A stretch of DNA of 64,000 nt from Pyxidicoccus parkwaysis (lineage in GTDB: Bacteria; Myxococcota; Myxococcia; Myxococcales; Myxococcaceae): contig NZ_CP071090.1 in the NCBI RefSeq assembly GCF_017301735.1, forward strand, positions 5,446,001 through 5,510,000, written 5' to 3'. A program made the translations under genes and the position numbers. Positions 43,560 to 52,239 of the stretch are shown in pieces; within the stretch, counting starts at the first letter, position 1, and the number at the start of each line of letters is the position of its first letter. The notes below the pieces were generated by a model. The model was not told the origin of the DNA. It ran no database searches and saw nothing but the letters and a program-made list of their open reading frames with translations.

Positions 43560-43572
43560 CGCCGGAGCCGGC

Positions 43573-44154
43573 CTACAGCGCGCGCACCATCACCGCCGGC
43601 AGGCCCGGCACCTTGAGGTACTCCACGCGCGTGGGGCGCATGGGGGCATCCGGCCAGCCCGGCCGGGCCAGCGCGGAGAGCAGGTCCGTCACCGGGTACT
43701 GGAAGGCCTCGACGTGCGTGGGCCCCGCCATCGGCTGCAGGCCCCATGCGAGGGCAATGCGCAGCCGCTCGCAACGGGCCACATCCGCCATGTACGCGGG
43801 CAGATTCCCGCGCGGGGCCGCCTCCAGGTAGTGGCAGAAGGCGATGGCCTCCTCGCGGTTGAGCAGCTCCGGGAGCGCGTCCTGGAGGAAGTCCTTCAGC
43901 ACCGCCAACAGGCCGGGCCGCACCGCGGGGTCCGCCCACGGCAGGTGCTCGTGCACACGCGACAGGCGGTGGCCGTCCAGCATCCGCCCCGCCCGCTCCA
44001 CCACGACGGCGTCCGCGCCCGCCAGCGCCTCGCGCTCACGCGGCGTCAGCGCGTACGGCGCCATGGCCGCGTTCGCGTCCTGCAACCAGGCCTCGCGGAA
44101 GCGTGCATCCACGTGCAGCCGCGCCAGTACCTCCAGCGTCTCGGAGTAACCCAT
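43573..44154 (-). CDS. Short protein after the MNIO gene, possible partner
   Basis: The protein has 193 residues and no signal. The N-terminus (EVLARLHVDARFREAWLQDA, then PYALTPREREALAG) is a small helical module with an F-R-x-x-W-L-x-D and L-T-P-R-E pattern; the rest is mixed helix and ends in an E-Y-L-K-V strand. MNIO enzymes usually work with a partner of about this size encoded next door (MbnC, TglI, ChrI, BufC), so the position fits, but the sequence does not let me assign one of those families. AGGA precedes ATG 44154. It is the last gene of the operon. Confidence 0.6.
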   Translation of the reverse strand: MGYSETLEVLARLHVDARFREAWLQDANAAMAPYALTPREREALAGADAVVVERAGRMLDGHRLSRVHEHLPWADPAVRPGLLAVLKDFLQDALPELLNREEAIAFCHYLEAAPRGNLPAYMADVARCERLRIALAWGLQPMAGPTHVEAFQYPVTDLLSALARPGWPDAPMRPTRVEYLKVPGLPAVMVRAL

Positions 44155-44166
44155 GATGTCGTCCTG

Positions 44167-45000
44167 TCAGGCCGCGCTCGCGCCGCAGCGCTCGAGGATG
44201 GCCCGTGCACGCGCGAGCTCCTCCACCAGCCGCGCGAAAGGCGGAAAGCCGCTGTCCATCTCGAAGTTCACCCCACGCACCGGACAGCGCGGCGCCACGT
44301 ACTCCAACAGCCGCCACACCTCCTCCGGCGACACGTTGGAGTGGCTGTCCACGTACACGCCCTCCATCGTCACCCCACCCGCCAGGTGAATCTGCACCAC
44401 CCTGTCCAGCGGGAGCCGGTCCACGAAGGCGTACGGGTCGAACTTGTGGTTCACCGCGTTGGCGTAGACGTTGTGCAAGTCCAGCAGCAGCCCGCAGTCC
44501 GCCTGCGTCACCACGCGGGTGAGGAAGTCCGCCTCGTCCAGCGTGCTGAGCGGCGTGTCGAACAGCCAGGCGATGTTCTCCACGATGAAGGGCAGGCCCA
44601 GCTCCGCCTTCACGCGGCGGATGTTGCGCACGCACGTCTCCAGCGCGTCCTCCGTGAAGGGCACCGGCGTGAGCGAGCGCACCGGCAGCTCGCCCGCGCG
44701 CGTGAAGCACAGGTGGTCCGAGTGCCACGCCGCGCGCGTGGTGGCGAGCATCCGCTTCAGGCTCGCCACGTAGTCCGGGCCGTCCACGCCGTCCGAGCCC
44801 ACCGACAGCTCCAGCCCGTGGCCCGCCAGCGGGAAGCGCTTCGCCAGCACCTCCAGCCGGCGCACCGTGTCCTCCGTCAGCGGGAAGAAGTGCTCGGGCA
44901 TCACCTCCAGCCAGTCCACGCCCGGGTTGCCCCGCGCGAGGTGCGGCTGGAAGTCCCAGCGGTAGCTGAGCCCGACGCCCAGGAACGGAATCGACGACAC
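44167..45000 (-). CDS. MNIO (DUF692) iron-dependent peptide oxygenase
   Basis: The protein has 277 residues. It starts IPFLGVGLSYRWDFQP as DUF692 proteins do. Metal-ligand motifs of the TIM-barrel MNIO family appear in order: PEHFF, HGLELSVGS, WHSDHLCF, VENIAW, LLLDLHNVYANAVNH, QIHLAGG, DSHSNVSPEEVW and NFEMDS. Known MNIOs (MbnB, TglH, ChrH, BufB) oxidise cysteine or other residues in short peptides made by neighbouring genes. Start is GTG 45000 with AGGAGG overlapping the upstream stop. It lies 10 bp from the methyltransferase and 12 bp from the partner-like gene. The nine CSCGGT peptides upstream are the likely substrates (inference). Confidence 0.88.
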   Translation of the reverse strand: MSSIPFLGVGLSYRWDFQPHLARGNPGVDWLEVMPEHFFPLTEDTVRRLEVLAKRFPLAGHGLELSVGSDGVDGPDYVASLKRMLATTRAAWHSDHLCFTRAGELPVRSLTPVPFTEDALETCVRNIRRVKAELGLPFIVENIAWLFDTPLSTLDEADFLTRVVTQADCGLLLDLHNVYANAVNHKFDPYAFVDRLPLDRVVQIHLAGGVTMEGVYVDSHSNVSPEEVWRLLEYVAPRCPVRGVNFEMDSGFPPFARLVEELARARAILERCGASAA

Positions 45001-45010
45001 GGCGTGCCTC

Positions 45011-45850
45011 CTACTTCTTCCTGCGCGCCATCACCTGGAAGTGCTGGCCCTGCAGTGCGTAGCCCTCGTGCGCGAGCTTCTCCTGCATCGCGATGATTTC
45101 ATCGCGCGCCGCCCACACGTCGAAGTCCGGGCCGCGCTCGGCCTGCATCGCCTCCAGCATCTCGAAGTACATGACGGGCTTGCCGAAAATCTCCTCCAGG
45201 TCCGCGCCCGCCGCCTTCACGCCGTCCTGCAGCTCCTGGATGGTGAACAGGTGCACCGGCAGGCCGTAGGGGCACTTGCCGCGGCCCGTGAGCAGCAGCT
45301 TCAGCGCCTCGGCCTTCTTGCCGTGCTTGAGCTCGAACATGAAGTGCTCGTGGCGGTTGTCCACGCCCATGATGACCGGGCCGCCCGGCTTCACCACGCG
45401 CACCAATTCGCTCATCGCCTTGGGGTACTGGTCCAGGCAGTAGGACACCGGGTCGCCCTCGCTGAAGACGAGGTCGAACTCCGAGTCCTTGAAGGGCAGG
45501 TCCGCCACCGTGCCCTCGATGAAGGAACAGCGCTCCAAGAGCCCCTTCGAGCCGAGATATGCCCTGGCCGAGTCCAGCATGCCCGCGGAGATGTCCAGCA
45601 CGGTGACGTTGTGGCCAGCCTCCGCGAAGCGCGCGCTGAACTTGCCGCCGCCGCCGCCCGCGTCCAGCACGCGCCACGACGTGCCGGCCGGAGGCAGCAC
45701 CTTCTCCACGGCCTTCCAGGTCAGCTCCTCGTAGACCACCCAGAACAGCTTGTGCGCCGCCTTGGTGTACTTGTTGTCGTTGTACGTCGACGACACCTGG
45801 TTGTAGCAGCTGGAGATGTCCTGCGGCTGCGGCGTATTGGCGGTGCTCAT
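45011..45850 (-). CDS. Class I SAM-dependent methyltransferase
   Basis: The protein has 279 residues. Motif I is VLDAGGGGGKFSARF, the acidic loop VTVLDISAGMLDSAR, motif II FDLVFSEGDPVSYC and motif III LVRVVKPGGPVIMGV. The substrate-binding C-terminal part shows no specific family. In this operon it could methylate the modified peptide (thiol, carboxylate or amide); inference. GGAG lies before ATG 45850. Confidence 0.85.
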   Translation of the reverse strand: MSTANTPQPQDISSCYNQVSSTYNDNKYTKAAHKLFWVVYEELTWKAVEKVLPPAGTSWRVLDAGGGGGKFSARFAEAGHNVTVLDISAGMLDSARAYLGSKGLLERCSFIEGTVADLPFKDSEFDLVFSEGDPVSYCLDQYPKAMSELVRVVKPGGPVIMGVDNRHEHFMFELKHGKKAEALKLLLTGRGKCPYGLPVHLFTIQELQDGVKAAGADLEEIFGKPVMYFEMLEAMQAERGPDFDVWAARDEIIAMQEKLAHEGYALQGQHFQVMARRKK

Positions 45851-45871
45851 GACGGGTTCACTCCGGGCACT

Positions 45872-47992
45872 TCAGTACGTGAAGGAGATCTTCGAGAGGA
45901 TGCGGCGTTCCTGCGAGCCGTTGAAGGGCTGGTCCGAGTACACGAAGAACAGGTCGCTCCAGTCGCGGTAGTGCCAGCCGAAGACGGCGTCCAGCAGCGT
46001 GCCCTTCACGTTGCTGTAGTCGGCGAGCTCGGACACCGCGCCCTGCTGGAACGTCACGCGGGTGTAGAGGTTGGGGTTGAACTGGTAGCGCAGCTGCGCG
46101 TAGCCGCTCCACGAGTGGCCCGTGCCGGAGGTGCCGTACAGCTCGCTGTTCTTCGGCACGTCCTTGCTCTCCGTGTAGAAGCCGCTGAACTTCGCCTGGA
46201 GCCGGTTGCCCATCTTGATGTTGAGCGCGCCGTTGACGCCGCGCGTGGGGCCGCCGAGGAAGTTACCGGTGAAGGCCGTCAGCGTCAGGCTCTGCCAGTC
46301 GTTGGGGAAGAGGATGAAGCCGCCGGTGGCGATGCGGTCCTTGAAGCCCTCGTTGTCGTCGTAGACGTAGTCCGCGTAGAGGGCGAAGTTGTGGTGCAGG
46401 TACGGCTGCACGTTGACGCGGTTGCGCAAGCGGGTGCGCACGTGCTCGTGGTCGCGGCGCCAGAGGCTGTCCCACGTGAGGTTGACCTGCGGCAGGAAGC
46501 GCAGCTTGGGGAACGGCGTCAGGTACAGGTGCGTGTTGTAGCCCTGCTTGTCGAGCACCGGCGTGTAGCCCAGCGGGTTGGCGTAGCGCTTGCCGATGTC
46601 CTCCAGGTGGATCCAGAACTCGGAGTTGGTGTCGAAGCGGTGGATGGCGATCTTGTACGCCTCCGAGTCCTTGTGGCCGGCCACGTCGCTCCAGCTCTTC
46701 AGAATCTGCGCCTGGACGAAGAGCTCCTCCCAGATGTGGATGTTGGCGTCGAGGCCGGTGGTGCGGAACCAGCCGTACTTGTCACCCTTGCGGCTCACCG
46801 CGATGAGGTTGATGGCGGAGCGCTTGCCGATGTCCTGCTGGAGGCGCAGCACGCCGGAGTTGAGGTTCTCCCGCTCGTTGCTGCCGTCGCCCGGGTCGTC
46901 CCGGTGCTGCACGTCGAGGAGCGCGAAGCCCAGGCCGCCCACCTTGCCGGTGAGCTGCGCGCCGCCGAGCACCTGGTCGTGCGGCTTCATGGCGATGCGG
47001 CGGGAGGTGAAGATCTTGATGGGCGCGAGGAAGAGGTGCTCGCTCTCCACGAAGAAGGGACGGCGCTCGGGCAGCAGCGGCTCCTCGGTGTCCAGCAGGA
47101 GCCGGTCCTGGTCCGCTTCCACGTCGGAGAAGTCCGGGTTGGCGGTCAGCTTCAGGGCCACGTTGGGCGTCGGGTCGATGCGCGCATCGAAGCCGGCGTT
47201 GGGCTTGAACACCTTGCGGGACGCCGTCGTCTGGAGCGCGACGTCCGTGGCCACGTACGGGGTGATGCTCCAGCTGCGGCGGCCTTCGATGTTCTTGAGT
47301 CCCTCCAGGTGCGGGAAGCGGCTCACCTTGGCGCTGTTGACGCCGTCCGGCGTCCAGTTGCTCCACTCCTGCGTGCGCGCCTGCTCGCGGTCCAGCATGA
47401 GGCCGAACGTCACCTCCTCCGTCGAGGGGAACTGGAAGTTGGCGAAGGGGATGCGGACCTCGGAATACCAGCCGTCCTCGGTGATGGAGCCCATGGACTC
47501 CCACTCACCGGCCCACGACGTGGTGAAGGCCTCGCCGTCCGCGACGATGCGGCCGTCGGTGCGCACGCCCAGCGGGTTGGTCCAGAAGTAGTACGCGTTC
47601 CGGTGGTCCTTGAACGTGTCCAGCATCACCGTGACGTTGTCCTCCTGGTGGAGGAAGGACTCGTTCTGGACGCTGTACGCGGTGATTTTCGACGGGTCCT
47701 TGTCCAGGCAGTGGAACAGGACGTACAGGTTCTTCTTGTCGTAGAGGATGCGGACCTTGGTGTCGTCACGCGCGGGGTTGCCGTAGTCGATGCGCGTGAG
47801 GTGCCAGCCCGAAACCTCCGGGGCCGTCTGCCACACGGCCTCGTCGGGCTTGCCATCGATGGTGATGGGCTCGCTCGTGAAGGTGGCCTTGTAGTTGTAG
47901 TACTGCTTGTCTTCGGGCGAATCAGCGAGGGCCAGGGTCGGCAGACACGCGAGGAAGAGCGCGGCGCCCCAGGTACAGGTCGACGTTTTCAT
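45872..47992 (-). CDS. DUF5916-type outer-membrane barrel with CBM9-like front
   Basis: The protein has 706 residues. A Sec signal (ALFLACLPTLALADS) is followed by a CBM9-like sandwich (about 35-200; TIDGKPDEAVWQTAPEVSGW) and then a long series of amphipathic strands with alternating aromatic residues, ending ILSKISFTY. A final aromatic residue is typical of proteins inserted in the outer membrane by BamA. ATG 47992 overlaps the MFS stop (ATGA), tying it to the operon. It could move the peptide product through the outer membrane or catch a ligand. Related proteins are of unknown function. Confidence 0.75.
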   Translation of the reverse strand: MKTSTCTWGAALFLACLPTLALADSPEDKQYYNYKATFTSEPITIDGKPDEAVWQTAPEVSGWHLTRIDYGNPARDDTKVRILYDKKNLYVLFHCLDKDPSKITAYSVQNESFLHQEDNVTVMLDTFKDHRNAYYFWTNPLGVRTDGRIVADGEAFTTSWAGEWESMGSITEDGWYSEVRIPFANFQFPSTEEVTFGLMLDREQARTQEWSNWTPDGVNSAKVSRFPHLEGLKNIEGRRSWSITPYVATDVALQTTASRKVFKPNAGFDARIDPTPNVALKLTANPDFSDVEADQDRLLLDTEEPLLPERRPFFVESEHLFLAPIKIFTSRRIAMKPHDQVLGGAQLTGKVGGLGFALLDVQHRDDPGDGSNERENLNSGVLRLQQDIGKRSAINLIAVSRKGDKYGWFRTTGLDANIHIWEELFVQAQILKSWSDVAGHKDSEAYKIAIHRFDTNSEFWIHLEDIGKRYANPLGYTPVLDKQGYNTHLYLTPFPKLRFLPQVNLTWDSLWRRDHEHVRTRLRNRVNVQPYLHHNFALYADYVYDDNEGFKDRIATGGFILFPNDWQSLTLTAFTGNFLGGPTRGVNGALNIKMGNRLQAKFSGFYTESKDVPKNSELYGTSGTGHSWSGYAQLRYQFNPNLYTRVTFQQGAVSELADYSNVKGTLLDAVFGWHYRDWSDLFFVYSDQPFNGSQERRILSKISFTY

Positions 47993-49287
47993 CCGGGCTC
48001 CTGAGATGGGGTGAGGACGGGGGTGTGGGTTACAGCGGCCGGCGCGGAGCGCTCGGGAGCCCAGGCCATGCCGGCCAGGGACAAGAGCAACGCACCGGAA
48101 GACAACAGGAAGGCACTGGACAGCCCGGCGTGCCGGGCCACGAAGCCATAGGTGAGCGGGGCGAGCACCTGCGCGAGCGCCGCGCACCCGCCGAGCGCGC
48201 CCAGGAAGCGGCCGCGCTCCGAGGTGGGGGCCACCTCCACCACCACCGCCTGCGCGGAGGGGCGGTGCAGGCCGTCCGGCACCGCGAGCAGCGCCCACGA
48301 CACCACCATGACGGCGAGGCCGTACGGCGCGGGCAGCCAGCCGGAGAGGCCGAGGATGCCGCTCATGAGCACCATGCCCGCCAGGCCCGCGAGGATGATG
48401 CCGTTGCGCTTCTGCAGCCCGTCCGACAGCCGCCCGCCGAAGGGCTGGGCGAAGGCGTAGACGAGCCAGGAGACGGCGACGAGCGGCCCCACCGCCTCCG
48501 ACGGCGCGCCCAGCTTCATCGCGTAGAGCGGGATGTAGATGGGGAACAGGTTGAGCGCGAAGGCGAAGAAGAACTGCCAGGCGAACAGGCCCGCCAGCCG
48601 GGGCGCGCCGCGCACGTAGTCCACCGGGGCGCGCACCGCGTCCAGCGCCAGCTTCCACCCGCCGCCCTGGGCGCGCGCTTTGGGCGCCTCACGCGCGGGC
48701 TCCTCCAGCCTCAGGAGCAGCAGGCTGCTGACGAGGAAGAGCGCGCCGGCGAGGAAGAAGGTGTACTGCGTGGACAGCAGGCGGATGACGAAGGCGGAGG
48801 CGCCCAGCGCGAGCACGAACATCAGGCTGGTGCTCGCGTCCAGCAGGGCGAAGATGGTGGCGCGCTTCTGCTTCGGCGCGAAGTCCGCCACCAGCGCGCC
48901 ATTCACCGGCTGCGCGCTGCGCTGCAGGAGCAGCTTCAGCGACAGCGCCGCGGCCAGCGGCAGCGGGTGCGCGAAGAGCGCCATCACCGGCACCAGCAGC
49001 GACGTCACGAGCGACAGGCCCACCACGAAGCCCTTGCGGCTGTAGCGGTCCGACAGCGCGCCCATCACCGGCTGCAGGAAGATGGGCACCAGCGAGCCCA
49101 CCGAGTACACGAGGCCGATGCCCTGCAAGTCGAGCCCGCGCGACTGGAGGTACAGCGGCATCACCGGGTTGAGCAGACCGCCGGCCACCGTGCCCACCAG
49201 GCCCGACACCATCAGCACGCGCAGGTTGCCCAGCCCGCGCGTCAATTCGTACATCTCGCGCACCGCGCGAAGGCCCCGGGAAATCAT
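47989..49287 (-). CDS. MFS transporter, probable peptide exporter
   Basis: The protein has 432 residues with 12 membrane helices. GALSDRYSRKG is the MFS loop 2-3 motif and GGRLSDGLQKRNG its counterpart in the second half. It resembles drug-efflux members. Its ATG overlaps the stop of the Lon-like gene and its stop overlaps the barrel gene start (both ATGA), so stoichiometric expression is likely. In a peptide operon it would export product across the inner membrane (inference). Confidence 0.88.
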   Translation of the reverse strand: MISRGLRAVREMYELTRGLGNLRVLMVSGLVGTVAGGLLNPVMPLYLQSRGLDLQGIGLVYSVGSLVPIFLQPVMGALSDRYSRKGFVVGLSLVTSLLVPVMALFAHPLPLAAALSLKLLLQRSAQPVNGALVADFAPKQKRATIFALLDASTSLMFVLALGASAFVIRLLSTQYTFFLAGALFLVSSLLLLRLEEPAREAPKARAQGGGWKLALDAVRAPVDYVRGAPRLAGLFAWQFFFAFALNLFPIYIPLYAMKLGAPSEAVGPLVAVSWLVYAFAQPFGGRLSDGLQKRNGIILAGLAGMVLMSGILGLSGWLPAPYGLAVMVVSWALLAVPDGLHRPSAQAVVVEVAPTSERGRFLGALGGCAALAQVLAPLTYGFVARHAGLSSAFLLSSGALLLSLAGMAWAPERSAPAAVTHTPVLTPSQEPG

Positions 49288-49916
49288 GCCGCCACCCCAC
49301 TGGAAACCGTCGTGGCCGCGCCCGCGGACGGACGCAGCGGAAGCGTGCCGAGCACGGACTCGGCGGCCACCGTGAGGCTGGGGACGGGACGCACGTCCAG
49401 CGCGCTCAGCGGCGCGGCGTCCCACTGGCTGCCCGCGGGCACCCAGACCGGCACGCGCCCGGCGGACGCATGGACCTGGCGCACGTAGGCGTCCGCGGCG
49501 GCCAGCTTGCCCTGGAGCTTTTCGAGCGGCGCGGGCACCAGGGCCTCGCTGCCGTCGAGCGCCACTCCGGTGGCGAGGAAGGGAGAAGGCACTTCGCGGC
49601 CGGCGAGCAGCGCCACCCACGCGACGAACAGCGGCAGGGACGCGCTGCGCCCGTCCAGCGTCACCTTGCGGCCGCGCACGGAGAAGAAGAAGTCCGTCTC
49701 GTCCCACGGCAGCGCGTAGCGCCCGAGGCCCACGGCCTTCAAGTGGCGCAGGTGCTGCTGCCAGGCCGGCGCGTAGCCGGTGTCACGCGACAGGTCCACC
49801 CAGAGCCGGCCTTCGCCCGGACGCACCGCCACGTCGACGGACACGAGCCGGAACAGCGGCGCGCCATGGAGGTCCGCCTGGGTGAGCAGCAGCAATGGCG
49901 TGGACGAGGAGGGCAC
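49284..49916 (-). CDS. Lon-like (S16-fold) protein without ATPase
   Basis: The protein has 210 residues from GTG 49916; GTG 49967 would add 17 residues but falls inside a hairpin. The middle reads VTLDGRSASLPLFVAWVALL, then REVPSPFLATGVALDGSEAL and LEKLQGKLAAADAYV. This matches the Lon protease domain layout: a D-G-x-S-A-x nucleophile region, the T-G-x-x-x-D-G strand and the catalytic Lys in x-K-L-x-A-A, but no AAA+ domain is attached. It may trim peptide leaders or only bind peptides. It follows the last peptide gene and overlaps the MFS gene. The family call is from pattern memory, not alignment. Confidence 0.6.
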   Translation of the reverse strand: MPSSSTPLLLLTQADLHGAPLFRLVSVDVAVRPGEGRLWVDLSRDTGYAPAWQQHLRHLKAVGLGRYALPWDETDFFFSVRGRKVTLDGRSASLPLFVAWVALLAGREVPSPFLATGVALDGSEALVPAPLEKLQGKLAAADAYVRQVHASAGRVPVWVPAGSQWDAAPLSALDVRPVPSLTVAAESVLGTLPLRPSAGAATTVSSGVAA

Positions 49917-49955
49917 GATGGGAAGCGGAACGGGAAAAGGGTTGGTGAGGACACA

Positions 49956-49990
49956 GGCGGGACGCACTTCCGAAGAGAGTGCTTCCCGCC
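49956..49990 (-). promoter_or_regulatory. Hairpin after peptide 9
   Basis: GGCGGGA-x-GCACT pairs with AGTGC-x-TCCCGCC around a nine-base loop (12 pairs, one mismatch). It begins 12 nt after the peptide 9 stop and covers a possible GTG start of the Lon-like gene, so it could lower translation or stabilise the peptide mRNA. No T-run follows. Confidence 0.6.
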
Positions 49991-50002
49991 CGTGAGCCGC
50001 GA

Positions 50003-50101
50003 CTACTCGGCGACGGTGCGCACCGTGGTGGTCATGGTGCCGCCGCAGGAGCACTTGTCGGAGGAAGCGGCAACGCGAACGATCTGAGCCTTGACGTACA
50101 T
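50003..50101 (-). CDS. Precursor peptide 9 (32 aa, CSCGGT family)
   Basis: The common N-terminus MYVKAQIVRV, AASSDK and CSCGGT is followed by the tail MTTTVRTVAE. AGAGG stands before the ATG. It is the last of nine copies; 35 bp and a hairpin separate it from the 49967 GTG of the Lon-like frame. Confidence 0.85.
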   Translation of the reverse strand: MYVKAQIVRVAASSDKCSCGGTMTTTVRTVAE

Positions 50102-50134
50102 GGGAGACCTCTTGTGTGGGGTGTGATTGAGAGG

Positions 50135-50166
50135 CAGCCACGGCCCGGCGAGCCGAACCGTGGCTG
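50135..50166 (-). promoter_or_regulatory. Hairpin after peptide 8
   Basis: CAGCCACGG and CCGTGGCTG form a perfect nine-base stem around a 14-base loop, beginning 16 nt after the peptide 8 stop. Confidence 0.55.
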
Positions 50167-50182
50167 GTGCTGCCGGTGACGA

Positions 50183-50278
50183 CTACTCCGCGACCTGCAC
50201 CGTGGCGGTCATGGTGCCGCCGCAGGAGCACTTGTCGGAGGAGGCGGCAACGCGGACGATCTGGGCCTTGACGTACAT
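50183..50278 (-). CDS. Precursor peptide 8 (31 aa, CSCGGT family)
   Basis: Same conserved front as copy 1 (MYVKAQIVRV, AASSDK, CSCGGT) and the tail MTATVQVAE. GAGAG lies upstream. Eighty-one bases with a hairpin separate it from copy 9. Confidence 0.85.
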   Translation of the reverse strand: MYVKAQIVRVAASSDKCSCGGTMTATVQVAE

Positions 50279-50366
50279 GGTTGTTCTCTCTCGTGGTGTT
50301 GCGGGTTGGGCCCATCCCACGGCCCGGCGAACCGGACCGCGAGTGGGGTGCTTCAATCCGGCGGGA

Positions 50367-50388
50367 GCGGGAAGGTCACCCTCCCCGC
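50367..50388 (-). promoter_or_regulatory. Hairpin after peptide 7
   Basis: On the minus strand GCGGGGAGG pairs with CCTTCCCGC (one wobble) around GTGA, beginning 14 nt after the peptide 7 stop. Confidence 0.55.
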
Positions 50389-50402
50389 CCCACCGGAGAG
50401 GA

Positions 50403-50504
50403 CTACTCCGCCGTGCTGTTGGACAGCGCCGCGGACATGGTGCCGCCGCAGGAGCACTTGTCGGACGACGCGGCAACGCGAACAATCTGAGCCTTGACGT
50501 ACAT
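50403..50504 (-). CDS. Precursor peptide 7 (33 aa, CSCGGT family)
   Basis: Conserved front and tail MSAALSNSTAE, the most polar tail of the set. GGAG lies eight bases before ATG 50504; an in-frame ATG two codons upstream overlaps that site and is less likely. At DNA level its conserved part is the same as copy 6, pointing to recent duplication. Confidence 0.85.
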   Translation of the reverse strand: MYVKAQIVRVAASSDKCSCGGTMSAALSNSTAE

Positions 50505-50547
50505 GGTCATTTCTCCAGGTGTTGCGGGTTGAGGGTTGCTGCTTGGA

Positions 50548-50649
50548 CTACTGGACGACCGCGGCGCTATCGGCCAGGGTCATGGTGCCGCCGCAGGAGC
50601 ACTTGTCGGACGACGCGGCAACGCGAACAATCTGAGCCTTGACGTACAT
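50548..50649 (-). CDS. Precursor peptide 6 (33 aa, CSCGGT family)
   Basis: Conserved front and tail MTLADSAAVVQ. One of two copies ending in Gln instead of Glu. GGAG lies eight bases before the ATG. Forty-three bases separate it from copy 7, without a hairpin. Confidence 0.85.
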   Translation of the reverse strand: MYVKAQIVRVAASSDKCSCGGTMTLADSAAVVQ

Positions 50650-50691
50650 GGTCATGTCTCCAGGTGTTGCGAGTTGACGGCGGGGAGCCGA

Positions 50692-50787
50692 CTACTGCAC
50701 CACCGCGGTGTCGAGGCTCATGGTGCCGCCGCAGGAGCACTTGTCGGAGGAAGCGGAAACGCGAACGATCTCGGCCTTCACGTACAT
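50692..50787 (-). CDS. Precursor peptide 5 (31 aa, CSCGGT family)
   Basis: Front MYVKAEIVRV (Glu6 for Gln) then SASSDK (Ser11 for Ala) and CSCGGT; tail MSLDTAVVQ, ending in Gln. AAGGAG precedes the ATG, the best ribosome site of the array. Confidence 0.85.
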   Translation of the reverse strand: MYVKAEIVRVSASSDKCSCGGTMSLDTAVVQ

Positions 50788-50839
50788 GGTGAATCTCCTT
50801 CGTGGTTGAGTTGGGTTGAGTCGTTGAACCGCGCCGGGA

Positions 50840-50938
50840 CTACTCAGCGACGGTGGCGGTGCTGATGGTCATCGTGCCGCCGCAGGAGCACTTGTCGGAC
50901 GACGCGGCAACGCGGACGATCTGAGCCTTCACGTACAT
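50840..50938 (-). CDS. Precursor peptide 4 (32 aa, CSCGGT family)
   Basis: Conserved front and tail MTISTATVAE. CGAGG precedes ATG 50938. Fifty-two bases without a hairpin lead to copy 5. Confidence 0.85.
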   Translation of the reverse strand: MYVKAQIVRVAASSDKCSCGGTMTISTATVAE

Positions 50939-51020
50939 GGTGAACCTCGTTGGGTTGGGGGTTGAACCCGCCCGCGCTCCAGGGTGAGCCGGCACGCGGC
51001 GCGGGGTACTGCGTACGGCA

Positions 51021-51045
51021 CGGGCGGAAGGCAGACCTCCGCCCG
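51021..51045 (-). promoter_or_regulatory. Hairpin after peptide 3
   Basis: CGGGCGGAGG pairs with CCTTCCGCCCG (ten pairs with one wobble) around a short loop, 11 nt after the peptide 3 stop. The stem sequence is nearly that of the hairpin after peptide 2, so the two are related by duplication. Confidence 0.6.
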
Positions 51046-51056
51046 CTCCGTGACTA

Positions 51057-51149
51057 CTACTCGAGCACCCTGACAGTGGTCATGGTGCCGCCGCAGGAGC
51101 ACTTGTCGGACGACGCGGCAACGCGGACGATCTCGGCCTTCACGTACAT
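51057..51149 (-). CDS. Precursor peptide 3 (30 aa, CSCGGT family)
   Basis: Front MYVKAEIVRV (Glu6), AASSDK, CSCGGT; tail MTTVRVLE. CGAGG precedes the ATG. A hairpin follows the stop within 11 nt, and 118 bp separate it from copy 4. Confidence 0.85.
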   Translation of the reverse strand: MYVKAEIVRVAASSDKCSCGGTMTTVRVLE

Positions 51150-51238
51150 GGTGAACCTCGTGGGACTTCGGGTTGAGCTTTCCCATCCACGTCCCGGAGA
51201 ACCGGGCGCACGAGCCAACAACCAGGCTGAAACGAAAT

Positions 51239-51267
51239 CGGGCGGAGAGGAGGTCCCTCTCCGCCCG
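51239..51267 (-). promoter_or_regulatory. Hairpin after peptide 2, attenuator-like
   Basis: CGGGCGGAGAGG and CCTCTCCGCCCG form a perfect 12-base stem with a five-base loop, 10 nt after the peptide 2 stop. The minus-strand sequence after it (ATTTCGTTTC) is mildly T-rich, so it might end part of the transcripts. Confidence 0.65.
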
Positions 51268-51277
51268 AACCATCGAA

Positions 51278-51370
51278 TTATTCGATGGACGTGCGCACGG
51301 TCATCGTGCCGCCACACGAACACTTGTCGCTGGAAGCAACAACACGAACAATTTCGGGCTTGATGTACAT
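51278..51370 (-). CDS. Precursor peptide 2 (30 aa, most diverged copy)
   Basis: Front MYIKPEIVRV (Ile3, Pro5, Glu6), VASSDK, CSCGGT; tail MTVRTSIE, stop TAA where the others use TAG. Its codons are much less GC-rich (GTT, TGT, ATT) and many synonymous sites differ, yet the CSCGGT block is unchanged. That is strong sign of selection on the motif. AGAGG precedes the ATG and a 12-bp-stem hairpin follows the stop. Confidence 0.85.
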   Translation of the reverse strand: MYIKPEIVRVVASSDKCSCGGTMTVRTSIE

Positions 51371-51416
51371 GGGCGTCCTCTTTCGGGGTGTGGAGGGAAG
51401 AAGCAACAGGGACGGA

Positions 51417-51509
51417 CTACTCGGCGACGACGAGGACCGACATGGTGCCGCCGCAGGAGCACTTGTCGGAGGAAGCGGCGACGCGAACGATCTGGGCCTT
51501 GACGTACAT
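51417..51509 (-). CDS. Precursor peptide 1 (30 aa, CSCGGT family)
   Basis: First peptide gene after the PqqD-like gene. Front MYVKAQIVRV, AASSDK, CSCGGT; tail MSVLVVAE. GAAGAGG precedes ATG 51509. No signal sequence is present, so any leader must be the short conserved front itself. The only two cysteines are the CSC pair, the expected target of an MNIO enzyme (inference). Confidence 0.87.
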   Translation of the reverse strand: MYVKAQIVRVAASSDKCSCGGTMSVLVVAE

Positions 51510-51580
51510 GGTGAACCTCTTCGGGTTGGGGTTGGCCTGTGCAGTGAAACACCGCGTTCCGCGTCACAGGCTGCGTATGC

Positions 51581-51662
51581 GTTTTATTAAAAAATAAAAC
51601 ACACACATTCGGGGCTCTTCGCGCAAAGCGCTGCCATGGCCATACGAGCCAGGGGAAGAGCC
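51581..51662 (-). terminator. Hairpin and T-rich tract between PqqD-like gene and peptide 1
   Basis: On the minus strand GGCTCTTC (51662-51655) and GAAGAGCC (51620-51613) form an eight-base stem over a 34-base loop that contains a smaller GCGC hairpin. A TTTTATTTTTT tract follows at 51600-51583, itself part of the palindrome GTTTTATT-TTTT-AATAAAAC. It resembles an intrinsic terminator or attenuator, and its AT-richness is striking in this genome. The peptide array may have its own promoter here, but I could not define one. Confidence 0.55.
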
Positions 51663-51694
51663 GGATTCGTATCTACAGAGGGGGATGAGACGTG

Positions 51695-51973
51695 TCAGGA
51701 GACGCTGGAGGGCTCGCAGAGCCCCAGCTCCTGGAACTGGGTTACAGTACTCCGAACGTCTTCAGCGATTTCCTGTATCGGTGCGGATTCACCCATTCCG
51801 CGGGAGAGGGCCTGCACCGCGTCCTCGAGCGTGCCACCACTGCGGCACAGCTCGAAGATGCGAGCGGCGGTCTCATTCACCCGGAAGACCTCGCCACCCT
51901 CGGTGTCCATGAGGAAGAACGCATCCTGCTGCTGCTGGACGATGACACCGGCCGCTGCTCGTGGAAGGACCAA
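51695..51973 (-). CDS. PqqD-like peptide-recognition (RRE) protein
   Basis: The protein has 92 residues, the usual PqqD size. It reads AGVIVQQQQDAFFLMDTEGG, then VFRVNETAARIFELCRSGG and ends with IAEDVRSTVTQFQELGL. The layout (beta strands, V/L-N-x-T-A/G-x-x-I-x-x-L, then D-V-x-x-x-V-x-x-L-x-x-x-G-L) is that of PqqD, which binds RiPP leaders and hands them to modifying enzymes. Start is TTG 51973 with AGGAG eight bases upstream. No radical SAM partner is adjacent, so it may serve the MNIO or methyltransferase. First gene after the promoter at 52061. Confidence 0.85.
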   Translation of the reverse strand: MVLPRAAAGVIVQQQQDAFFLMDTEGGEVFRVNETAARIFELCRSGGTLEDAVQALSRGMGESAPIQEIAEDVRSTVTQFQELGLCEPSSVS

Positions 51974-52060
51974 GGTGCGCTCTCCTGGTGACCACGGCTT
52001 TCCCCGCCCCTGCTCCGAACCCCCTGAGACCCGGTCAAGCCGTGCTTCTTTATTTCCGTG

Positions 52061-52089
52061 TTTCTAAATCCTTCCATTCATATAGTCAA
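52061..52089 (-). promoter_or_regulatory. Sigma-70-type promoter of the peptide operon
   Basis: On the minus strand TTGACT (52089-52084) is followed after exactly 17 bp by TAGAAA (52066-52061). The stretch is AT-rich against the GC-rich surroundings. Transcription would start near 52054, about 80 nt before the PqqD-like gene. Confidence 0.65.
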
Positions 52090-52149
52090 TACCTGACGGA
52101 CCCAGAGGTAGAAATGACCTCAACCTCGTGATTTCTCAGGCTGAAACAG

Positions 52150-52207
52150 GAAGGCCCTCGCAGGTGACGCATCGCATGCAGGCGGTGCGTCAATCTGGAG
52201 GGCCTTC
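52150..52207 (-). terminator. Compound hairpin after menB
   Basis: An outer stem GAAGGCCCTC / GAGGGCCTTC (10 bp) encloses an inner stem TGACGCA / TGCGTCA (7 bp). It begins 33 nt after the menB stop and lies upstream of the peptide operon promoter, so it should insulate the two. Confidence 0.7.
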
Positions 52208-52239
52208 TCGGGGGTGACTTCTACAGGTTCGCAGGTGTG

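Follow-up and report, generated by a model that had tools for sequence, protein, structure and literature searches.

Nine tandem mini-genes with constant fronts and variable tails in Pyxidicoccus parkwaysis: probable precursors of an apparently undescribed MNIO-type RiPP family

Nine tandem mini-genes of the soil myxobacterium Pyxidicoccus parkwaysis probably encode precursors of MNIO-type RiPPs, whose synthesis, cleavage and export would be carried out by the products of seven flanking genes. They lie in the 64,000-nucleotide stretch of DNA analyzed here (the window; positions 5,446,001 to 5,510,000 of NZ_CP071090.1). The family appears to be an undescribed one, literature searches having yielded no description of these peptides. 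The peptides join a strongly constrained front, including an invariant cysteine motif, to a short and fast-diverging tail that is drawn from a restricted set of amino acids.

Results

Nine mini-genes form a genuine array

The array is made of nine complete ORFs of 30-33 codons each on the minus strand (50003-51509; Table 1), and a repeat search of the window independently recovered nine in-register copies of a 108-nt repeat. Both confirm the constant front and variable tail described in a previous sequence-only reading of this DNA, which had also attributed MYVK-x-x-IVRV, SSDK and CSCGGTM to all nine peptides. IVRV, SSDK and CSCGGTM are indeed present in 9/9, while the start is MYVK in eight and MYIK in one (51278-51370, which begins MYIKPE). 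The constant front reads MYVKAQIVRVAASSDKCSCGGTM. The tails are as they had been described: 7-10 residues long, different in every copy, and ending with Glu in seven cases and Gln in two.

No tenth copy of the motif was found elsewhere in the 13.2-Mb single-contig genome by a whole-genome motif search, homologues occur in 21 other genomes, in the same operon place wherever the contig extends far enough, and a Shine-Dalgarno-like sequence is located 4-18 nt upstream of 83 of the 87 mini-genes known from the array and its relatives. The array is therefore not a product of chance. Residues M1, Y2, R9, V10, A12, D15, C17, C19 and M23 are invariant in the 87 single-gene peptides, all of which carry E/Q at position 6 and I or V at position 7. 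NCBIfam and Pfam scans of the precursors returned no match (a zinc-finger hit at E 0.055 is attributable to chance), and no hydrophobic segment indicative of a signal peptide could be seen by eye in the 30-33-aa precursor (MYVKAQIVRV...). GC-rich hairpins, one with a perfect 13-nt stem, occur in the wider spaces between mini-genes (51238-51268, 50135-50166 and 51015-51051) and are possible processing or attenuation elements.

Table 1. Window coordinates of the nine precursor genes and of the operon that contains them.
Feature	Position	Strand	Remarks
Precursor 1	51417..51509	-	MYVKAQIVRVAASSDKCSCGGTM-SVLVVAE
Precursor 2	51278..51370	-	MYIKPEIVRVVASSDKCSCGGTM-TVRTSIE; same tail in L040 and L042
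Precursor 3	51057..51149	-	MYVKAEIVRVAASSDKCSCGGTM-TTVRVLE; same tail in L041 and L042; decayed copy in L040
Precursor 4	50840..50938	-	tail TISTATVAE
Precursor 5	50692..50787	-	tail SLDTAVVQ
Precursor 6	50548..50649	-	tail TLADSAAVVQ
Precursor 7	50403..50504	-	tail SAALSNSTAE
Precursor 8	50183..50278	-	tail TATVQVAE; same tail in L041
Precursor 9	50003..50101	-	tail TTTVRTVAE
PqqD-family protein (standalone RiPP recognition element), first operon gene	51695..51973	-	Pfam PqqD 1.4e-12; NCBIfam lasso_PqqD 4e-9, under cut-off; precedes the array in all complete loci
Standalone Lon-type (S16) proteolytic domain	49284..49916	-	start taken as GTG at 49916; catalytic Ser encoded at 49644-49646 and Lys at 49506-49508
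MFS exporter	47989..49287	-	Pfam MFS_1 7.8e-48; position conserved
CBM9 + DUF5916 protein	45872..47992	-	Pfam; signal-peptide-like N-terminus, outer-membrane-type C-terminus (...SKISFTY); position conserved
SAM-dependent methyltransferase	45011..45850	-	Pfam Methyltransf_25 1.5e-21; position conserved
MNIO (DUF692, PF05114) oxidative enzyme	44167..45000	-	Pfam 2e-80; PDB profile matches 3bww, TglH, MbnB
MNIO partner, 193 aa, TglI/MbnC-like fold, NHLP-clan N-terminal domain	43573..44154	-	fold matches; NCBIfam Os17 NHLP 7.9e-8, under cut-off
Whole present-or-absent block	43566..52239	.	flanking genes directly adjacent in six Myxococcus genomes that lack the array

The array is embedded in a conserved operon

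The neighbors of the array are all on the minus strand, and the operon runs from the PqqD gene (RRE) through the precursor array to the genes for the standalone Lon-type Ser/Lys protease domain, the MFS exporter, the DUF5916/CBM9 protein, the methyltransferase, the MNIO (PF05114) and its TglI/MbnC-fold partner. Gene order and array position are identical in 16/16 complete relative loci (Myxococcus/Pyxidicoccus, Corallococcus, Citreicoccus and a Myxococcaceae MAG), and incomplete contigs keep the same order as far as their sequence reaches. The "one enzyme set" postulated earlier is thus found in place, and its PqqD-like protein supplies the RRE expected of a RiPP pathway. The DUF5916/CBM9 protein is likely to reside at the outer membrane, to judge from its terminal sequences. 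Pfam and NCBIfam scans detected no copper or immunity gene in the operon and no copper genes flanking it, and the peptide aminoacyl-tRNA ligase that adds the C-terminal Cys in pearlins is absent from the conserved operon.

Among the genus mates of the window's genome are Pyxidicoccus caerfyrddinensis and a Myxococcus strain. A precursor profile matched 22 of 195 Myxococcota genomes, all of them Myxococcaceae. The profile of the S16 protein matched exactly the same 22 genomes, besides weak matches resembling true Lon proteases, and closely related MNIO sequences (>74% identity) are present in these genomes plus a fragmented one. One pattern, covering the first ten residues, was scanned against 84,980 species genomes and returned Myxococcaceae only. 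The genes on either side of the block, for enoyl-CoA hydratase and hemolysin III, are 34-855 bp apart in Myxococcus genomes that lack the array (six loci read), against 8.67 kb here; the operon is one 8.67-kb present-or-absent indel in Myxococcus/Pyxidicoccus. Loci from other genera have different neighbors on either side, which identifies the operon as the unit.

The MNIO and its partner point to a probable RiPP cluster

The MNIO matches PF05114 with 2e-80 and 270 bits (cut-off 25). Its closest NCBIfam models are BufB (211 bits) and HvfB (199 bits), both under their cut-offs, and it scores 21.9 bits against a cut-off of 325 for the MbnB equivalog (methanobactin) and 67 bits against 600 for the ChrH equivalog (chryseobasin). 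Since no subfamily cut-off is reached, the chemistry cannot be deduced from the sequence. The partner gene adjoins the MNIO gene in all complete loci, and the structural model of its product (pLDDT 88) has its best fold matches in TglI (8hi7/8hci; E 5e-4; Z 9.3-9.5), followed by MbnC (7dz9_C; Z 4.6). None of 18 partner proteins has a DUF2063 match in Pfam, and the fold fits the "PME-type 2" partners of PMC12452194. The locus consequently combines the components of an MNIO-type RiPP cluster, namely an MNIO, an MbnC/TglI-type partner and a short precursor with a conserved Cys motif, C17 and C19 being invariant in 87 mini-genes.

The next-closest MNIO loci (L127-L130, about 42-46% identity) were considered and set aside as different clusters with other precursors. 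Two of them (L128:5983-6177 and L130:9099-9323) represent a distinct myxobacterial MNIO cluster, with a ~590-610-aa MNIO-containing protein, glycosyltransferase-like and asparagine-synthase-like genes and a precursor of the type ...EEFKLEMLDCGP...CFSCxCGSxCLCG. The window's own genome has a second MNIO near 1.76 Mb (L131:7961-9175), located beside a bufferin-like precursor with repeated EGSCG/EGGCS.

Fronts are constrained and tails diverge rapidly

Codons were compared between five congeneric genomes, with loci paired by their non-coding flanks only; this replaced a pairing that used the tails, since the latter favors conserved tails. In this small, pairwise test, which is not phylogeny-corrected, replacement/silent ratios are 0.17 for the front (bootstrap 0.10-0.25) and 1.03 for the tail (0.73-1.34). 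The latter is not significantly above 1, and reaches 1.57 when only replacements to amino acids ever seen in tails are counted. With a looser pairing, the CSCGGTM codons display 0 replacements versus 24 silent changes. The outcome anticipated in the sequence-only reading, with strong constraint on the CSCGGT codons and high replacement rates in the tails, is thereby largely borne out. In whole-array alignments, tail DNA shows lower similarity than intergenic DNA in 33 of the 37 pairs of genomes (9/10 in this genus and 24/27 in other groups), pairs that share history and are non-independent.

The closest pair, G095/G109, has 93% identity in non-coding DNA, 97% in the fronts and 78% in the tails. 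When the count was repeated with codons as anchors, 30 of 171 tail bases differed, versus 78 of 1047 non-coding ones (Fisher p 7e-5, or p 0.0014 if the converted locus is left out). Replacements in the tails amount to 0.19 per site versus 0.05-0.09 silent changes per site in the operon enzyme genes. The converted locus is locus 6 of G109, which has its own front and flanks but the tail of locus 4 (28/30 bases). Tails hence also move between copies, and a single such conversion inflates the tail counts.

The sequence-only reading had named two patterns that would speak against diversified tails, one-to-one conservation between strains and neutral codon evolution with frameshifts. Simple one-to-one conservation, suggested by three shared tails, was rejected, as flank-anchored alignment shows that tails have been replaced between near-unchanged flanks; most tails change, although 6 of 32 flank-defined orthologue pairs are identical. 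The ratio near 1 would fit neutrality, but the tails outpace intergenic DNA and use a restricted alphabet. One decayed copy was seen, a remnant of the TTVRVLE mini-gene (L040:7104-7170), which is intact in the window and in L042.

Tails vary within a narrow chemical class

Gly, Pro, Cys, Met, Phe, Tyr, Trp and His account for 0 of the 304 tail residues in this genus, as compared with 34% expected from shuffled tail DNA and 29% in the operon enzymes. The tails of this genus therefore draw on 12 amino acids, and Val, Thr and Ile make up 44% of their residues versus 16% in the operon enzymes. The final residue is E/Q in 81/81 tails from all groups, apart from six Cys-rich tails that end in Cys, and the last residue is retained in 30 of 32 orthologue pairs while the rest of the tail changes. 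TVRTSIE and TTVRVLE each occur in three species, and the same tail can recur within an array (in seven copies of L045 and two of L042). Together, the restricted alphabet, the E/Q ends and the shared tails indicate diversification within a narrow chemical class rather than free variation. That the tail gives target specificity, as was proposed before, is plausible.

Two side observations concern the arrays of relatives. The seven same-tail copies (L045:8727-9596), mostly on an exact 128-bp period, reflect a recent tandem amplification. Two Corallococcus genomes possess three-gene orphan arrays (L054:6711-7139 and L056:6689-7118), with Cys-bearing tails that end in Cys (e.g., TTTTTTCTGLVQSSDC) and K16 replaced by S/T; the maturation genes are absent from these 8.9-kb contigs.

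The tail data also bear on a somewhat unlikely alternative, in which the peptides handle copper as CxC..M chalkophores or buffers, the copies mainly raise the dose and the tails serve as spacers under loose constraint. It agrees in part with our preferred explanation on the chemistry and differs on the purpose of the tails. Cys-modifying MNIO products (methanobactin, bufferin and oxazolin) bind copper (PMC12452194), the L045 amplification looks like dosage, and relaxed constraint would produce a tail ratio near 1. However, simple relaxation does not predict tails that diverge beyond intergenic DNA, the eight missing amino acids show that tails are not free, and copper genes are absent around the operon.

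A minimal Lon-type protease domain and its predicted cut site

The 49284-49916 product had no match in a single-protein Pfam search, and a PDB profile search retrieved Lon proteases only, weakly (best E 0.08). Its AlphaFold2 model (pLDDT 82) gave Foldseek best matches that are all Lon (E 1.3e-9), and superimposes on the E. coli Lon proteolytic domain with Z 18.9 over 172 residues. The motifs LDGRSASLPLFVAWVALL and QGKL are unchanged across this protein and 17 relatives, with Ser and Lys invariant in all 18 and aligned with the catalytic Ser/Lys of the genome's own two Lon proteases (DGPSAG/KEK). The product is a standalone Lon-type Ser/Lys protease domain: its ~210 aa contain the fold and the dyad of S16 enzymes, and the AAA+ ATPase module is missing. 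RadA and ComM, which are not known as proteases, share the S16 fold with the model, and we infer proteolytic activity from the intact Ser/Lys dyad. It speaks against the proposed cleavage that Lon proteases normally require their ATPase and do not typically prefer Glu/Gln at the cut. A review of proteases (PMC10885120) mentions no Lon or S16 enzyme.

In one Myxococcaceae MAG (L052:8586-9131), the array is a single 181-aa ORF with the same operon downstream. This polyprotein consists of MYNKPQ followed by seven units IxRxxx..DKCTCS.GM-tail (joined as ..E|IxRVS..), with inner junctions E|I in five of six cases and A|I in one. These junctions, together with E/Q at residue 6 and I/V at residue 7 of the 87 single-gene peptides, suggest cleavage after E/Q6. 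In the simplest reading of these sequences, the protease would cut after E/Q and before I, to leave products of the form IVRV...M-tail-E/Q.

The polyprotein is also informative on a distinctly unlikely possibility, namely that the target of the MNIO is the C-terminal residue, which is Cys for TglH, Asp for ApyH and Asn for MovX (PMC12452194); the terminal Glu/Gln, or the Cys of the orphan arrays, would then be modified and CxC..M would serve as a metal or recognition motif. The uniform E/Q or Cys ends, the retention of the last residue between orthologues and the partner's best fold match, TglI, are in line with it. Conversely, C17, C19 and M23 never vary, the nearest MNIO models, BufB and HvfB, modify Cys, five of the six inner unit-final residues of the polyprotein are Glu and become terminal only once cut, and E/Q is found at position 6 too, as befits a cleavage signal. 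It is highly improbable that the mini-genes lie in the operon by chance and that their products are small structural or regulatory peptides without modification: their very short leaders and lack of family matches would suit this, but they strictly co-occur with the MNIO, partner, PqqD and dedicated protease in four genera, and their Cys motif evolves by silent changes only.

Discussion

Proposed pathway

Based on these data, we propose a pathway in which the cysteine motif is the modification site. The PqqD protein and the TglI-like partner would hold the constant IxRV.. stretch, while the MNIO oxidizes one or both cysteines of the invariant D-K-C-x-C-x-x-x-M, which by analogy could yield a copper-binding thiooxazole or oxazolone-thioamide. 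The methyltransferase would decorate the product, and the standalone Ser/Lys Lon-type protease would act between E/Q6 and I7 to release IVRV...C-x-C...M-tail-E/Q. The MFS and DUF5916 proteins may then carry the product through two membranes. The constant block would thus act both as recognition element and as modification site, whereas the 7-10-residue tail would remain part of the product. Selection and the transfer of tails from copy to copy would diversify it, resulting in a family of related products.

A more speculative and unlikely extension sees the arrays as a fast-evolving modified-peptide repertoire. The tail would be an identity or specificity tag (for kin recognition, rival targeting or receptor choice) on a single constant group, reactive or metal-binding, that the MNIO makes; tails would be exchanged by short conversion tracts, and release would depend on the dedicated ATPase-less Lon-type protease.

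Many related natural products are thus probably made here by one small set of enzymes. A single MNIO set facing up to nine precursors with a constant putative modification site would constitute a natural library on the tolerance of MNIO enzymes for the substrate C-terminus, and the array family also bears on what drives the diversification of a modified peptide. A minimal S16 protease whose cut site is predicted is a further asset of the operon, and the seven-unit precursor of L052 is a direct test case for that site. Relative to the sequence-only reading, the identity of the enzyme set, the dedicated S16 protease, the probable cut site, the restricted alphabet, the tail transfer and the 8.67-kb present-or-absent unit are new.

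Comparison with known systems

The closest parallels are the MNIO RiPPs without signal peptide (methanobactins, pearlins, aminopyruvatides; adjamnio groups, PMC12452194), which have in common with the present operon a PF05114 MNIO beside a PME-type-2-like partner and a short signal-less precursor. The system described here differs from methanobactins, pearlins and aminopyruvatides by CxC...M, up to nine precursors per array, a variable tail, a standalone PqqD, a Lon-type protease and a DUF5916 protein, and it reaches no subfamily cut-off. The main text of PMC12452194 has no word beginning "myxo". BufB and HvfB, of the bufferins and oxazolins, are the closest characterized MNIO sequences by score, but those families have precursors with a Sec signal peptide and, in bufferins, partners of the DUF2063 type (PMC12452194); neither feature was found here, and the BufB/HvfB cut-offs are not reached. 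Myxobacterial ChrH precursors with CPACGMMM (PMC12636315) were examined as well and form another group.

With Lon proteases (S16), the operon protein shares the proteolytic-domain fold and the Ser-Lys dyad; it differs by the absence of the AAA+ ATPase and N-domain, and its close relatives occur in this operon only. Prochlorosins and similar RiPPs rely on one enzyme set for many precursors, with a constant leader and a fast-changing C-terminal part. The present arrays have this arrangement in common with them, but here the putative modified Cys motif is constant too, only the residues behind it vary, and the enzyme class differs. Lastly, pyoverdines, which are nonribosomal, link a constant functional group to a peptide part that is diversified, and have one receptor per variant; in this analogy, the nine tails instead share one conserved DUF5916 protein (mean dN/dS 0.33).
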